Shown here in pieces: positions 4,701 to 15,385 of a stretch of 44,313 bases of DNA. The notes beneath the pieces are model-generated. The model did no database searches and was not told the DNA's origin. It saw only the letters and a list, made by a program, of their open reading frames with translations. The stretch is taken from positions 1 to 44,313 of IMG/VR virus record IMGVR_UViG_3300022939_000039. One strand, given 5' to 3'. The DNA comes from a virus. Position 1 is the first letter of the stretch, and every line of letters starts with the position of its first letter. Made by a program: the position numbers and the translations under genes.

Positions 4701-5813
4701 TTAAATAACATAAATCTGACGAGGCATTGCTCTGAATTGTAGTGACTTATTTAGGTTTTCTGCAATTCCTGCCTCTCTTTCCATCATCTTCTCAGGTCTT
4801 AATCTTTCTAATCTCTGAGTCAACTCTTCCATTAATTTAGATTTTTCATCTTTAGCTTCTGTGAGTAAAGAATCGTATTCTAATTGTAATTCTGAATCAG
4901 GTGTCTTCAAGTTACCACTAAACTTACCTCTAACTCTACCTAAAGTTTCTTTAACATAAGATACGAACCACTTTCTTACCCATGTTTGTGCTGGATTATT
5001 TAATTCATCCCACTTCATTTCATCAATAGGTATGTCTGATGGTAGTCTTACTACATCAGGGTTTTTAGCTAAACAATCCTCACGGTCTTCAGTATCGTAA
5101 TACCAATACCAAACACGGTATTCGTTATGTTGTATATTTCCGAAGTCAAATTTACCACCAGGTACGTTCATTAAGTGAACAGCTTTTTTACCATCAGGTA
5201 ATGCGGTTACTCTATAAGTTAAGTCACCTGAAATAATTCTTCTTTTAACATTAATATCTTGCATTCTAAGTAGGATATCAAATGCTGGTGTAATAAAGTA
5301 ATTACCCATAGTTCCCATTTGTGAGAAACCAGCAGCACCACCTAAACCGATACCACCAAATCCACCGAAACCACCCATAAACGGGTCAAAGAATGCTGCG
5401 TCTAACTCCGCTCTTTGGAACCATAAAAGTTCATTTAATTCTCTACCTTTTGGTATTTCATATATTTGTTGACCTGGAACCAAGTCAATATAGTCTTTTT
5501 TAAGAACGTAATCACCACCAGCTTGTAAACCTACAATTTTAGAATAAGCGTAAGTATATTGAGTTTCCCAGTCTAAAGAACGAGTCGTAAAAGCACGTGT
5601 TACGGATTGTTCGTCTAAGTTCATTCCGTATAATGAGGTCCATTGAGATTCAATTAACCAATCATTTACATATTGTGCGTAGTCTTGAATTGATAACTCT
5701 AATAATGAGTCCATCATTTCATCTTCAATTTCTACACTACGAATAGGGGCACCTAACAGGTGTTTTACACGTGTATATAGTTTTGTTCTTTGTGGTTCGT
5801 TAATTACAGACAT
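4701..5813 (-). CDS. 13: Neck protein gp13-like (head-tail connector)
   Basis: A 370-residue homologue of the T4 neck protein gp13 (309 residues), which with gp14 closes the filled head and joins it to the tail. Near the start, LLGAPIRSVEIEDEMMDSLL matches the gp13 pattern 'LGAPI..VE....Q..D....A'. Near residues 270-320, TWVRKWFVSYVKETLGRVRG and the following helix with LLTEAKDEKSKLMEEL match the gp13 C-terminal region (RWVKDYATALAKELNGQI, then EARLEKEALREEL). A Gly/Phe-rich loop (about residues 147-165, GGFGGFGGIGLGG) resembles the Gly-rich loop in T4 gp13. It carries the late heptamer (minus strand, 5828-5834) 14 bases before its ATG. It is separated from gp14 by the dismutase and helicase genes and inverted relative to it, unlike T4, where 13 and 14 are adjacent. 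Confidence 0.85.
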   Translation of the reverse strand: MSVINEPQRTKLYTRVKHLLGAPIRSVEIEDEMMDSLLELSIQDYAQYVNDWLIESQWTSLYGMNLDEQSVTRAFTTRSLDWETQYTYAYSKIVGLQAGGDYVLKKDYIDLVPGQQIYEIPKGRELNELLWFQRAELDAAFFDPFMGGFGGFGGIGLGGAAGFSQMGTMGNYFITPAFDILLRMQDINVKRRIISGDLTYRVTALPDGKKAVHLMNVPGGKFDFGNIQHNEYRVWYWYYDTEDREDCLAKNPDVVRLPSDIPIDEMKWDELNNPAQTWVRKWFVSYVKETLGRVRGKFSGNLKTPDSELQLEYDSLLTEAKDEKSKLMEELTQRLERLRPEKMMEREAGIAENLNKSLQFRAMPRQIYVI

Positions 5814-5853: not shown

Positions 5854-7419
5854 TTACTTTGCATATTGTGCAGACTCGTCAAAAACGTATCTACCGTCAA
5901 TTATTTTAGTATTTGAGTTGTCAAAGACTATTGTACCTAACTTATTATTTTGAAAAACTAAAAAGTCTGTTTTATATGGTTTTACGTTTGCAGTCCCAAA
6001 AACAGTGATTTTACCATCAACATTTTTAGTGTCATTATACGGTTTAATTTGCATAGTCTTCGTTCCTTCAGGAAGTTCAACAATTGCGTCAACACCACCA
6101 ATCATGTCGTCTACACCACCCAGTTCACCTACTTTAGTAACTTTGTCGGTTTTAAAAATCTTCTTTAAGTCTTCGACAGCATCGACCTCTCTCTTATCAC
6201 CAAATTTGTTAGTTTTATCTAATCCTGCCATTAATGTTTGGAAAGTTGGTGACTCACTATTAAAGATTCGATATCTTAACTCAATAAGATATTTGTTCAA
6301 CCTATTAACCTCTTCAATTTGTTGTCGGTTATTTTTATTGTTAAAGTTAATTGCGTCGATACCATATTTTCTTAAGTATTGATTTATATCGTTAACTAAG
6401 GTACAGAACGCGGTATAATTTGTATTCAACTTGTTAATAACTGAACGACCTTTTTGTTCGTAATCATATACCCCCGACATCTGACCTTTATCATATTGTC
6501 CTTTTTCATACCAATACTCAGAGAATACTTCTTTTAAAATATCCATGATGGTAAACATAAACTTTTTCTTAATTTCAGGGTTTGTGTTAAATAATCTTCT
6601 ATAATTTTGAACTTGGTTTCTATTACAACCTGCACTGGCACCTTCACTGATGATACTCTTTACCTTTTTAACTTCATTAATTTTTTTCTCAGTCTTTAAG
6701 TTATATAAGTCATTAACAAAGTCCCAATTAATAACAGACCAAAAGTTTTTAATGTAATCATCACGTTTGTTTTTATATTTCAAATAATATGCGTGTTCCC
6801 ACACATCTAATCCTAAAATAGGAAATCCACCATTTTTAACAACATTCATTAATGGGTTGTCTTGATTTGGTGTTGACATAACTTTCAGTTTACCTGATTT
6901 AGTTAATACTAACCAAACCCACCCTGAACCAAATCTTTTTTTGGCTTCATTACTGAATATGGATTTAAACTTAGAAAACCCGTTAAAGTCTTTGACAATT
7001 TTATCATAAACCTCACCTTGTGCTCTTTGTTTTTTTGGTGATAACATTTTCCAAAATAATGCGTGGTTAAAAGCTCCACCCGCATTATTTCTAATGGTTG
7101 TGTTATATCTTGAGATACCTTTTATAATTTGTTCTAATTCTAAGTCACCATCTTTTCTTTTTGACAATGCGTCGTTTAATTTTTTTACATACCCTTTGTA
7201 GTGTTTGTTGTAGTGGGTATCCATAGTATCTGCGTCGATAAATCTTTCTAAGGCAGAATAGGAGTATGGTAAGTTTTCAATTCCTACTTTTTTCATTTCC
7301 GTTAAAATTTCTTTAGGGATTTGCGTAGACAACTCAGACAATAGTTTTTGAGTGTCTTGGCTTTTGTTTATTTTATGTTCAATCAATGAGATTTTTTCTT
7401 GTAATCTTCTGAACTTCAT
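5854..7419 (-). CDS. Fe/Mn superoxide dismutase fused to a helical and PD-(D/E)XK nuclease-like C-terminal region
   Basis: A 521-residue fusion. Residues about 49-245 are a complete iron/manganese superoxide dismutase (2 O2- + 2 H+ to O2 + H2O2): LPYSYSALERF; ligands His69 (MDTHYNKHY), His119 (NNAGGAFNHALFW), Asp205 and His209 (LDVWEHAYY); Tyr77; GSGWVWLVL. Gln186 in STPNQDNPLM sits where Mn-type enzymes place the second-sphere Gln, so Mn or cambialistic use is likely. Residues 1-48 are a basic/helical extension. Residues 265-400 are helical and unknown. Residues 405-500 look like a restriction-endonuclease fold: Glu411/Glu416 in KREVDAVEDLKKIF, Asp444 in GGVDAIVEL, Gln457-Ile-Lys459 in TMQIKPY, then TDFLVFQNN. 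The nuclease reading is inference by eye. It has a late heptamer and lies between neck genes, suggesting a virion-related protein. Confidence 0.9.
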   Translation of the reverse strand: MKFRRLQEKISLIEHKINKSQDTQKLLSELSTQIPKEILTEMKKVGIENLPYSYSALERFIDADTMDTHYNKHYKGYVKKLNDALSKRKDGDLELEQIIKGISRYNTTIRNNAGGAFNHALFWKMLSPKKQRAQGEVYDKIVKDFNGFSKFKSIFSNEAKKRFGSGWVWLVLTKSGKLKVMSTPNQDNPLMNVVKNGGFPILGLDVWEHAYYLKYKNKRDDYIKNFWSVINWDFVNDLYNLKTEKKINEVKKVKSIISEGASAGCNRNQVQNYRRLFNTNPEIKKKFMFTIMDILKEVFSEYWYEKGQYDKGQMSGVYDYEQKGRSVINKLNTNYTAFCTLVNDINQYLRKYGIDAINFNNKNNRQQIEEVNRLNKYLIELRYRIFNSESPTFQTLMAGLDKTNKFGDKREVDAVEDLKKIFKTDKVTKVGELGGVDDMIGGVDAIVELPEGTKTMQIKPYNDTKNVDGKITVFGTANVKPYKTDFLVFQNNKLGTIVFDNSNTKIIDGRYVFDESAQYAK

Positions 7420-7434
7420 TTGTGTTATTTTAAT

Positions 7435-7441
7435 ATAAATA
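7435..7441 (-). promoter_or_regulatory. Putative late promoter heptamer before dismutase fusion
   Basis: Minus-strand TATTTAT lies 15 bases before the ATG at 7419, within the 40-base gap to the helicase gene. It implies the dismutase fusion is expressed late with virion genes and independently of the helicase upstream. Confidence 0.55.
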
Positions 7442-7459: not shown

Positions 7460-9223
7460 TCAACGTCTGACTGAAATTTCGTTGATGATTTCTTCCATAA
7501 TATCCCCTTTTCCTTCGTTATCACCCATAACGGTTTCAAATATATTCTTTTTCTGAGATAAGATATCATATATGATTCCCTCAATAGAGTTTTCAAAAAT
7601 AGGGTAGAATACTGATACGTTTGATTTTTGTCCGTATCGATAGGCTCGGTCTTCGGCTTGTGAATGGTCGGAAGGTACAAATGATAAGTCATTCATTATA
7701 ACTGCCTCAGCGGCGGTTAATGTAATTCCTACACCTGCAGCTTTTAGGTTTCCGACAAAAACTTTTATTTTGTCGTTTTCCTGAAATTGGTCAACAGAAT
7801 GTTGACGAGCAGGTTTACTCATTTTACCATCCAACTTAACTGCCGACTTACCAAAATGGTCGGTGATTTGGTTTAGGGTATCTGTAAAGTTTGTGAATAT
7901 AATTACTTTTTTTCCTTGTTCAATAATGTTTTCAGCAATCTCACAAGTTTCTTTTACTTTATTTTCTGCAATAACCTGACGAACTTTCATAAGTTTTGAA
8001 AATTGGACAGTAAGAGATTTCTTTTCACTATCGTCTTCCATCCAATCATAATACTCACCCATTAACTCTTCGTATTGTTTTGATTTTAAATTCAAATATA
8101 CTGGTGTTAAAATCTTATCAGGTAAATCTAAGATATCTTGTTTTAATCTTCGTAATACGTGTGTTTTTGTTCGGTCCCTCAATTCTAAAAGATTTGATGC
8201 TCCGTTTACATTCCATACTTTTCTACTACCCACATTAAATTGATATCCTTCACAGTAACGAATAACATACGCCATCCAATTATAAGCAACAGGAGATTCA
8301 ACTAAGTTTAGTAGGTTGTAATAGTTAATTGGTCGTGAGGTCATTGGTGTTCCTGTTAACAACCACACTTTACCAATCTTAGTAATTATATCGTTTATAA
8401 GTTTGGTTCTTTTGGCTTGAACGTTTTGAATGTAGTGTGCTTCATCAACAACTACTAAATCAAAACCTTCTTGCATTATGACCGATTCTTCTTTATTTTT
8501 TGTGTCGTGAAAGTTCTTTAATATATCATAGTTGATGATAACAAAATCTGCACTTTCCCATTTTTTACCCTCAATAATTGATATAGACTTATCAGTATAG
8601 TTTTGTATCTCCCTTTTCCAATTTATTTTTAAAGACGCTGGACACACAATCAATACTCTCTCCGCACCTGACTCTAAAGCTGCAATCACAGTAGATGTCG
8701 TCTTACCTAAACCCATATCATCAGCTAAGATGTATTTGTCGTGAGATGCTAATTTTTCAATTGCTTCTTTTTGGTGAGACAGGGGCGGACGGTGAGAGTA
8801 TCGTTCATAATCAATTGAAACGTCTTTGACTTTTTGTGTTGGTATCAATGCAACTTTAGGTAACCAAAAGTCATGTAGTTTTTGGTTTTCAAATAATTTT
8901 CCCCAAATATGAAAAGACTTGTCTTTTTCAACAAGTATCTTTTCAACATAAACTTTATCAGGTACTTTTGTGAAAAGTTTTTCTTCCATCATCTTCGTAC
9001 CAAAATAACTGTCGAGGTCAACCCACTTTCTTGCAATCTTTGGTGTTGTTTCGTAATATGAATTTATATAGTCGGCTTGTGCTCGTGTTAATTTAAAGTG
9101 TTTTTGAACTTCGCTCTTTTTCTTAATGGACATTATATAGTTATTGAACCCATCGTACTCTTCTAAAATACGTTGTGCCCTTACTTCAGGTATTTTTGAT
9201 AATTTATCTTTATTACTTTGCAT
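7460..9223 (-). CDS. SNF2-family DNA-dependent ATPase / helicase (SMARCAL1-like)
   Basis: A 587-residue superfamily 2 motor. Motif I is LADDMGLGKTTS (Lys174), motif II VVVDEAHYIQN (Asp260-Glu261), motif III WLLTGTPMTSRP, and motif VI HSQAEDRAYRYGQ near residue 525. The order Q-motif (SHQKEAIEKL), DEAH, LTGTP and the RxxRxGQ box define the SNF2 family; the short, compact form resembles SMARCAL1-type annealing helicases. Such enzymes remodel forks and recombination intermediates using ATP. In T4 the unrelated-in-detail UvsW helicase has this role, and no UvsW is seen here, so substitution is plausible but unproven. It has its own sigma70-like promoter (9238-9266, minus) and no late heptamer in the gene's orientation, matching a replication-stage gene. 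Confidence 0.92.
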   Translation of the reverse strand: MQSNKDKLSKIPEVRAQRILEEYDGFNNYIMSIKKKSEVQKHFKLTRAQADYINSYYETTPKIARKWVDLDSYFGTKMMEEKLFTKVPDKVYVEKILVEKDKSFHIWGKLFENQKLHDFWLPKVALIPTQKVKDVSIDYERYSHRPPLSHQKEAIEKLASHDKYILADDMGLGKTTSTVIAALESGAERVLIVCPASLKINWKREIQNYTDKSISIIEGKKWESADFVIINYDILKNFHDTKNKEESVIMQEGFDLVVVDEAHYIQNVQAKRTKLINDIITKIGKVWLLTGTPMTSRPINYYNLLNLVESPVAYNWMAYVIRYCEGYQFNVGSRKVWNVNGASNLLELRDRTKTHVLRRLKQDILDLPDKILTPVYLNLKSKQYEELMGEYYDWMEDDSEKKSLTVQFSKLMKVRQVIAENKVKETCEIAENIIEQGKKVIIFTNFTDTLNQITDHFGKSAVKLDGKMSKPARQHSVDQFQENDKIKVFVGNLKAAGVGITLTAAEAVIMNDLSFVPSDHSQAEDRAYRYGQKSNVSVFYPIFENSIEGIIYDILSQKKNIFETVMGDNEGKGDIMEEIINEISVRR

Positions 9224-9269: not shown

Positions 9270-9785
9270 ATGAGTAATAGAAAGGTACCAATAACGAGAT
9301 TAGAAAAGTTTTTCGGGTCTGAAGATTTTGCATTAGAGCAAGAGATGGGACGTGAATGGCTTGAGGGCGATATGAACTTTACCTTAGTATTGTATCGTGT
9401 AGACCGTCAAAAAACTAAGACGGATGATGTATATGGTGAGACTGAAGAAGATGGTATTAAGTTTTTACCACCTGTAGAGTTTAGAGGTTATGTAACTATT
9501 GAACAACCTGAAAACCAAGACTATGCCAATTCTCGTATGAGTCAAATGGAACCTGGTAATTTAAAGGTCGGTGTATATCAAAACGCTTTGGATGAATTAG
9601 GTATTGATATTTCATATGGTGATTACATTGGGTATTACGAAACAGAAAAAAGAGTTAGATATTATTCAGTAGTTAATGACGGTCGTGTTGTCAGCGACAA
9701 TAAACATACTTACGGTGGTTACAAACCTTTCTATAGAAGTATTGTGGCTGCACCTGTTAATGATGGTGAGTTCAGAGGAATATAA
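9270..9785 (+). CDS. Probable neck protein gp14-like
   Basis: This 171-residue protein is the first of a head-tail connector pair before the sheath gene. The segment DDVYGETEEDGIKFLPPVEF and a later IDISYGDYIGYYETEKRVRYYSV resemble the gp14 layout seen in T4 (a D-x-x-x-GE segment, a central strand pair, then a 'GD.I.y......y.V' strand pair). The similarity is one of pattern only and is moderate. Position supports it: T4 order is 13, 14, 15, then 18, and here gp15-like and gp18 follow. T4 gp14 is longer (256 residues). It would form the gate that closes the filled head. An alternative is a head-closure protein of another family. The next ORF starts 12 bases after the stop, in the same operon. 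Confidence 0.55.
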   Translation: MSNRKVPITRLEKFFGSEDFALEQEMGREWLEGDMNFTLVLYRVDRQKTKTDDVYGETEEDGIKFLPPVEFRGYVTIEQPENQDYANSRMSQMEPGNLKVGVYQNALDELGIDISYGDYIGYYETEKRVRYYSVVNDGRVVSDNKHTYGGYKPFYRSIVAAPVNDGEFRGI

Positions 9786-14390: not shown

Positions 14391-14534
14391 ATGGAATTCA
14401 CAAAGAAAACTCTTAACGAAACATTAGATGTAAAATCTAATGGTAAAAAATCTTTTTCAGAAAAACCACAAAACATTGTTATTTCTGAATCACAATTAGA
14501 AAGATTAATTGAAAAACTAAACTCAACAAAATAA
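14391..14534 (+). CDS. 47-residue small protein with ISESQLERLIE motif
   Basis: I chose the ATG at 14391 because the in-frame ATG at 14331 lies in the stem of a hairpin, while 14391 follows a normal A-rich leader (tatacaaac). The protein starts MEFTKKTLNETLDVKS and ends with QNIVISESQLERLIEKLN. It is mostly charged and helical. Short 'ISESQLERLIE'-type helices recur in small proteins of large marine phages; their function is not known to me. The stop overlaps the ATG of the HAD gene (taATG), so the two are coupled and probably work together. It may be an assembly tag, a targeting peptide carrier or an adaptor for the HAD protein. No function can be claimed. Confidence 0.55.
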   Translation: MEFTKKTLNETLDVKSNGKKSFSEKPQNIVISESQLERLIEKLNSTK

Positions 14535-15385
14535 TGTCGATTAAAAGAATCATCAGAGAATTTTACGAAGAAAAACAACTTCGTGAAGGATTTGACCCTG
14601 AAGGTAGTCCTGATTTAAAATACTATGCTTTTGATTGGGACGATAACATCGTAACGATGCCCACTCAAATCATTGTTTTAACGGAAGATGACCAAGAAAT
14701 GGGGATGTCTACTGAGGATTTTGCAGACTACCGAGGGTTGATTGGTAAAGAACCTTTTGAATACAACGGTGAAATGATTGTTGGTTATGCTAATGACCCT
14801 TATAGAAATTTTGGGGTACAAGGTGATAAAGCATTCATTATTGATTCTATGATGGCATCTGTTGGTCCTTCATGGGATGATTTTGTTGAATGTATTAACG
14901 GTGGTTCAATCTTTGCAATTATTACTGCAAGAGGACATACACCGTCAGTATTAAGAGATGCAATATATAATTATATTGTGACCGACCATAACGGTATCAG
15001 TAAAGAAATATTGGTACAAAACTTAATAAAATACCGTAATATGGTGGGTGACACTGAAAAGGATATCCAAATTATGATTAATGACTATTTGGACCTTTGT
15101 AAATATTATCCTGTAACATACGGGGAGGGGTCAGCATCAAACCCTGAAGAAGGGAAGATTAAAGCACTAAGAGAGTTTATTGCTTATGTAAAAGAGATGA
15201 GTGAAATACTTGGAAAAAGAGCGTTCCTTAAAAATGATGTAAAAAATAATTTCGTACCGATGATTGGGTTTTCAGATGACGACCCAGGAAATGTGGAAAA
15301 AATCAAAGCATTTTTAGATTCAGAGTACGAAGATAAACCAGTAAGAACCTATTTAACTAAAGGAGGAGATAAACAAGAAATTTAA
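14534..15385 (+). CDS. HAD-superfamily phosphatase-like protein
   Basis: A 283-residue protein with HAD hydrolase motifs: motif I AFDWDDNIVTMPT (nucleophile in the DWDDN segment, about residues 33-37), motif II AIITARGHTPSVL (about residues 132-144), and motif IV IGFSDDDPGNVEK near residue 248. HAD enzymes remove phosphate from small molecules, proteins or nucleic acid ends through an aspartyl-phosphate. The substrate cannot be read from the sequence; T4 Pnkp's 3'-phosphatase is a HAD domain, but no kinase domain is seen here. Residues 1-20 (MSIKRIIREFYEEKQLREGF) form a basic amphipathic helix before the catalytic domain, similar in style to the leaders of other late non-structural genes in the window. 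It sits between sheath and tube genes, in a late operon. Confidence 0.8.
   Translation: MSIKRIIREFYEEKQLREGFDPEGSPDLKYYAFDWDDNIVTMPTQIIVLTEDDQEMGMSTEDFADYRGLIGKEPFEYNGEMIVGYANDPYRNFGVQGDKAFIIDSMMASVGPSWDDFVECINGGSIFAIITARGHTPSVLRDAIYNYIVTDHNGISKEILVQNLIKYRNMVGDTEKDIQIMINDYLDLCKYYPVTYGEGSASNPEEGKIKALREFIAYVKEMSEILGKRAFLKNDVKNNFVPMIGFSDDDPGNVEKIKAFLDSEYEDKPVRTYLTKGGDKQEI

Follow-up and report, generated by a model that had tools for sequence, protein, structure and literature searches.

What does a phage protein that joins a superoxide dismutase (SOD) to a second, nuclease-type domain do, and where would it act? The question is raised by a 521-residue open reading frame in a 44-kb virus record (IMG/VR record IMGVR_UViG_3300022939_000039, positions 1 to 44,313), the whole of which was analysed and is referred to as the window. 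A sequence-only reading had proposed an Fe/Mn SOD fused to a nuclease-like domain, made late, encoded between the neck genes gp13 and gp14, and possibly able to enter the head or the new host as a DNA-linked antioxidant that would protect injected DNA, with a second domain that would cut or repair DNA. The features of the locus are collected in Table 1. Conservation was counted over 69 non-redundant fusion homologues, thinned to at most ~92% mutual identity.

Table 1. Features of the fusion gene and its surroundings (positions in the window)
Feature	Position	Strand	Description
Whole fusion gene	5854..7419	(-)	521 aa: leader, Mn-type SOD (predicted), linker, PD-(D/E)XK-type domain
Leader, residues 1-46	7282..7419	(-)	Helical; model confidence low from residue 19; putative prohead-targeting segment
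Leader (I/L)xE motif ending at E41	codon 7297-7299	(-)	Putative protease site
Mn-type SOD (predicted), residues 47-240	6700..7281	(-)	Ligands H69, H119, D205, H209
Linker, residues 241-262	6634..6699	(-)	Two conserved (I/L)xE motifs, putative prohead-protease sites
Linker motif KINE (E249)	codon 6673-6675	(-)	Putative prohead-protease site
Linker motif IISE (E259)	codon 6643-6645	(-)	Putative prohead-protease site
C-terminal domain, residues 263-521	5857..6633	(-)	Nuclease-type core ~391-521 with E411, D444, Q457, K459
SNF2-type helicase	7460..9223	(-)	Conserved upstream neighbour of the fusion
gp13-like head-tail connector	4701..5813	(-)	Conserved downstream neighbour; PHROG 211, E 3.8e-10
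TATTTAT, putative late promoter	7435..7441	(-)	22 nt ahead of the start codon
Gene-start TATTTAT copies in the window	640, 5834, 7441, 9231, 11083, 15469, 17021, 19070, 35277, 39872, 42242	coding strand	

The Fe/Mn SOD identity was borne out by Pfam, PDB and ligand conservation. Both family domains scored above their cut-offs (PF00081, E 3.8e-22; PF02777, E 1.2e-39), residues 49-240 matched SODs in PDB with a best E-value of 4.5e-60, and the four metal ligands were invariant in 69/69 homologues, as were H73, Y77, G115, Q186, W207 and E208. Based on G115 and Q186, which we take to be the mark of Mn-type SODs, the enzyme is predicted to be of the Mn type. The fusion protein is predicted to have dismutase activity. 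Phage SODs as such are already known from freshwater phages, and have been published as ROS-defence, host-protecting genes without packaging (PMC6802176). Among close relatives whose synonymous sites are unsaturated, dN/dS was ~0.04-0.06 in the SOD, ~0.03-0.05 in the C-terminal domain (C-domain) and looser, at 0.15-0.40, in the leader. In the full-length AlphaFold2 model the C-domain was confident (~90), and residues 19-51 and 244-261 fell below 50. As for the placement between neck genes, the downstream gp13-like connector stood, whereas the gp14 identity of ORF 9270-9785 found no support from Pfam or PHROGs and the real upstream neighbour is an SNF2 helicase.

When the fusion was sought in other phage genomes, it was found in many IMG/VR contigs. 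At least 591 stretches of IMG/VR encode a relative (599 candidates were listed), a number that may include SOD-only relatives, and the best 80 of these at least 591 relatives span nearly the whole fusion. We gathered 207 fusion loci, repeats of the same contig included, which yielded 124 distinct proteins. Their gene order is near-constant, running from the SNF2 helicase through the fusion, the gp13-like connector and a small gene to DNA polymerase. Far from being a one-off, the fusion is how this core gene usually appears in a large, uncultured clade of T4-like phages. No match in an annotated phage collection spanned more than 42% of the query, and what aligned was essentially the SOD. Flavobacterium phage immuto, which by its recombinase (44% identity) is the closest cultured relative, was absent from these SOD matches. 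Since this nearest relative is a Flavobacterium phage, we infer that Bacteroidota are plausible hosts. As a separate hint on the host, secreted-type proteins of long relatives (L097:14250-16559 (+) and L108:5205-5735 (-)) have N-termini ending in YSQ or HSQ, which are typical of Bacteroidota. The architecture is common in metagenomes and undescribed in the open-licence literature searched, where no paper on a phage SOD-nuclease fusion, or on virion SOD in a tailed phage, was found.

The late expression that had been read from a heptamer ahead of the gene is supported by the placement of TATTTAT. This element lies upstream in 66/69 homologues, 11-30 nt away and mostly 20-28, and in the window 12 of its 21 coding-sense copies are 12-44 nt ahead of gene starts, mostly those of virion genes. 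The canonical T4 late promoter TATAAAT was rejected as the driver here, with only 2/22 copies near gene starts. TATTTAT is possibly a variant late promoter of the clade.

To the C-domain the sequence-only reading had assigned a PD-(D/E)XK arrangement. E411, D444 and Q457-x-K459 were invariant in 69/69 homologues, but Glu416 varied among them and was rejected as a catalytic residue. In the AlphaFold2 model, E411 is within a long helix, D444 is just ahead of a strand and Q457-x-K459 is on the next strand, so that the acidic/Lys motif sits on a helix-strand-strand core, with Gln at the position where Asp or Glu is usual in the third motif. When the C-domain was modelled alone (mean pLDDT ~87), the top PDB folds were all PD-(D/E)XK nucleases, namely I-Ssp6803I (E 4.9e-3, probability 0.98-1.00), NhoI and archaeal Hjc, with marginal E-values and TM-scores below 0.5. 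A viral structure library gave weaker matches, including PD(D/E)XK and Holliday-junction resolvase entries. At the sequence level, residues 263-521 had no applicable family in Pfam, PHROG or PADLOC, where the fusion fits no defence family; no curated nuclease profile of Pfam or PHROG matched among 26 members, and the C-domain profile gave only noise against PDB sequences. Hits to Pfam PHD_like, RFXA, MC4 and others were weak, confined to one member each and without family support. The missing curated-profile match is not decisive because the PD-(D/E)XK superfamily is very divergent. Scanned with the C-domain, contigs of bacterial and archaeal genomes gave no hit that could be confirmed. An uncultured phage of 735 kb encodes a SOD-less homologue (~23% identity) in which the E/D/Q-x-K motif is retained. 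Taken together, the C-domain likely has a PD-(D/E)XK fold, and nuclease activity may be expected from this model. The homologue of the 735-kb phage (L193:4743-5615, LR756501) has another gene setting, and a search using it alone gave no matches; a contig related to that phage carries a further SOD-less C-domain homologue (L281, from 2989), also in another gene setting. The same C-domain fold (E 1.4e-17) was also seen in UniProt A0A8D9CCA0, a protein of 1113 aa from an uncultured marine phage with a far larger architecture.

A search anchored on the distant homologue uncovered a natural experiment on the role of the SOD, namely orthologues that lack it and yet occupy the locus of the fusion, flanked by the SNF2 helicase and the gp13-like gene. 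No SOD domain was found elsewhere in these phages in the searched records, which reach 318 kb and are possibly incomplete. In a C-domain tree, eight SOD-less rows were nested among SOD-bearing rows and needed two separate changes, for which two independent SOD losses are the simplest reading. Between SOD-less L322 and SOD-bearing L228, close relatives whose C-domains are 92% identical, we found one clean in-frame deletion of 609 nt. In L322 it takes out the SOD together with the first linker site, so that the leader (LNE, then MKKI) is joined to the second site (ISE, then GKSE). The SOD-less proteins of both lineages still have a leader and, at the E259 position, an (I/L)xE, and most SOD-less orthologues retain a TATTTAT-type element just upstream. 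Leader and site therefore belong with the nuclease module and are no by-products of the SOD. The comparison shows the SOD to be dispensable, apparently an optional cargo ahead of a conserved putative nuclease with its own leader. At two other loci (L311 near 2836 and L184 near 3947) the SOD part and the C-domain are in separate frames, which may be natural splits or assembly errors.

The T4 prohead protease gp21 cleaves after L/I-x-E, and N-terminal capsid-targeting sequences bring proteins into the T4 head, where EcoRI and a staphylococcal nuclease have been packaged in this way (PMC9026906). In the fusion homologues, E249 was present in 69/69 with L, I, V or M at P3, E259 in 68/69 with I or L at P3 in 68, and E41 in 60/69 with mostly L or I at P3, the remaining homologues having a shifted site. 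All three glutamates are within the low-confidence segments 19-51 and 244-261 of the AlphaFold2 model. A gp21-type protease (Peptidase_S77) is encoded by 7/10 and 4/5 long relatives, and the window is without one. The major capsid proteins of long relatives have HLINE followed by Ala at the expected propeptide end. Head-cluster genes, in regions picked by eye, were enriched for N-terminal hydrophobic-(I/L)xE leaders both in one long relative (9/39 vs 7/124, p 0.003) and in a second (7/42 vs 0/63, p 0.001), and the best non-self match of a linker profile was an acidic head-cluster protein (score 10.1 vs a shuffled best of 6.6). The (I/L)xE motif is short and common, and L206-W207-E208 in the SOD core fits it too; the presence of [ILV]xE in all leaders (69/69) was discounted as stand-alone evidence, the leaders being Glu-rich and chance motifs frequent. 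Against cleavage at E41, the P1' residue is mostly Met, whereas Ala or Gly is common at such sites. On the whole, the alignment suggests that the linker and leader sites look made for cutting by the phage's own head protease, and nothing argues more strongly for a processed precursor than that leader and site persist once the SOD is deleted. The proposed entry into the head was strengthened by the conserved (I/L)xE motifs, the gp21-type protease of relatives and the leader and site that outlast the SOD. A single DNA-linked antioxidant gave way to another picture: going by the conserved protease-type sites, the mature products would be two separate enzymes.

The best-supported model is a prohead-targeted polyprotein whose SOD and nuclease are cut apart within the head, and we regard the truth of this model as evenly balanced. 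A late precursor would be made that consists of the leader, a Mn-type SOD, a cleavable linker and a PD-(D/E)XK-type nuclease, and the leader would steer it into the prohead. A gp21-type protease would cleave after (I/L)xE at E41 and at E249 and/or E259, releasing an SOD of ~23 kDa and a nuclease of ~29 kDa within the head, and both freed enzymes would be ejected along with the genome. The nuclease would be the conserved core, which may cut host or competitor DNA or resolve branched DNA, and the SOD an optional cargo clearing superoxide in the virion or the newly entered cell. We infer targeting, cleavage, packaging, ejection, both activities and the benefit. A difficulty for packaging is that an active packaged nuclease must be kept off the phage's own DNA. 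More tentatively, with the balance slightly against it, the head would deliver SOD and nuclease with the DNA from one protease-split precursor in which the SOD is an exchangeable module with a protease site on either side; this would give a widespread uncultured clade a natural system for loading two enzymes into its capsids.

The main rival, which we consider rather unlikely, is a late bifunctional enzyme that is never cut and remains inside the infected cell, where the SOD, as an auxiliary metabolic function, would protect the cell against oxidative stress and the nuclease, like T4 gp49 and with the neighbouring SNF2 helicase, would resolve branched DNA before packaging; an SOD dimer would also bring two nuclease domains together. 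The Hjc-like predicted fold, the adjoining helicase and the publication of phage SODs as ROS-defence genes (PMC6802176) fit such an enzyme, as does the finding that ten long relatives, whose records may be fragments, have no RuvC, RusA or above-cut-off endonuclease VII. It leaves unexplained, however, the (I/L)xE motifs of the disordered linker and leader, and why leader and site outlast the loss of the SOD. If the leader instead targets the fusion into the head and the linker stays uncut, its glutamates being structural or scaffold-binding, then both the leader of SOD-less forms and the conservation of the linker glutamates would be accounted for; we judge this improbable, as the linker, a segment modelled with low confidence, has two fits to the gp21 consensus. 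Least probable of all, in our view, is a C-domain that is catalytically dead or a non-nuclease DNA-binding relative of the PD-(D/E)XK fold. The marginal fold matches (E 5e-3, TM < 0.5), a third motif with Gln where Asp or Glu is usual and the lack of a sequence-profile match would agree with it, but E411, D444, Q457 and K459 are invariant in 69/69 homologues and present also in that of the 735-kb phage, and the C-domain survives SOD loss.

Compared with Fe/Mn SODs (PF00081/PF02777), including those of freshwater phages (PMC6802176), the fusion has the same full set of ligands and Mn-type residues, and is likewise phage-encoded as the latter are, but it also contains a leader and, behind a conserved linker, a second enzyme-type domain; it has a late-type upstream element and is placed between the helicase and the gp13-like gene. 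With I-Ssp6803I and archaeal Hjc the C-domain shares the predicted fold and an E/D/Q-x-K motif in matching secondary-structure elements, whereas it has no sequence-level match to them, its fold scores are marginal, and it has an extra N-terminal helical half (263-390). T4 IPI-IPIII and Alt, with their gp21-cut targeting sequences (PMC9026906), resemble the fusion in the N-terminal leader, the (I/L)xE sites and the gp21-type protease of relatives; the fusion differs in having two enzyme domains per precursor and internal sites, its packaging is predicted, and its leader was compared within its own clade. Among giant viruses, Cu,Zn SOD (e.g. of Megavirus) is one of the virion-packaged enzymes (PMC9405923). 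The analogy is that of a virus-encoded packaged SOD, although the fold is unrelated, the kind of virus is different and packaging is a prediction for the fusion.

UniProt A0A6J5L953, a 501-aa 'superoxide dismutase [uncultured Caudovirales phage]', has a predicted structure that shows it to be this fusion (C-domain E 1.6e-25). It differs in its label, being annotated as SOD only, and we found no analysis of the remainder; the public label is corrected here in that the record is a fusion. New here are the conserved (I/L)-x-E motifs, the gp21 cleavage signature, in two disordered segments, the leader and the linker. Should the precursor be packaged and cut, phages would deliver an antioxidant and a nuclease at the first moment of infection, beyond what later gene expression provides, and nature would have found a compact way to load a T4-like head with two enzymes. 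Whether a packaged SOD brings a benefit can be tested directly on the paired natural variants of this locus, which either have the SOD or have it cleanly deleted.

Leaders of similar appearance were also observed elsewhere. In the window, ORF 14534-15385 (+), between the tail sheath and tube genes, opens with a leader (SIKRIIREFYEEKQLREG) and a DWDDN stretch of HAD-like type; it belongs to no Pfam or PHROG family and is kept in two relatives (G001 and G002). In long relatives, large proteins near the capsid genes (L107:15184-19337, L108:3901-7729, L108:14412-15557 and L099:12406-13920), which belong to almost no known family, have leaders such as KKIIRLTESDLENIVRRIITEQ or KKLLSEIERLNELMGNKLLLNEQ, and by these leaders they are candidates for further head cargo.
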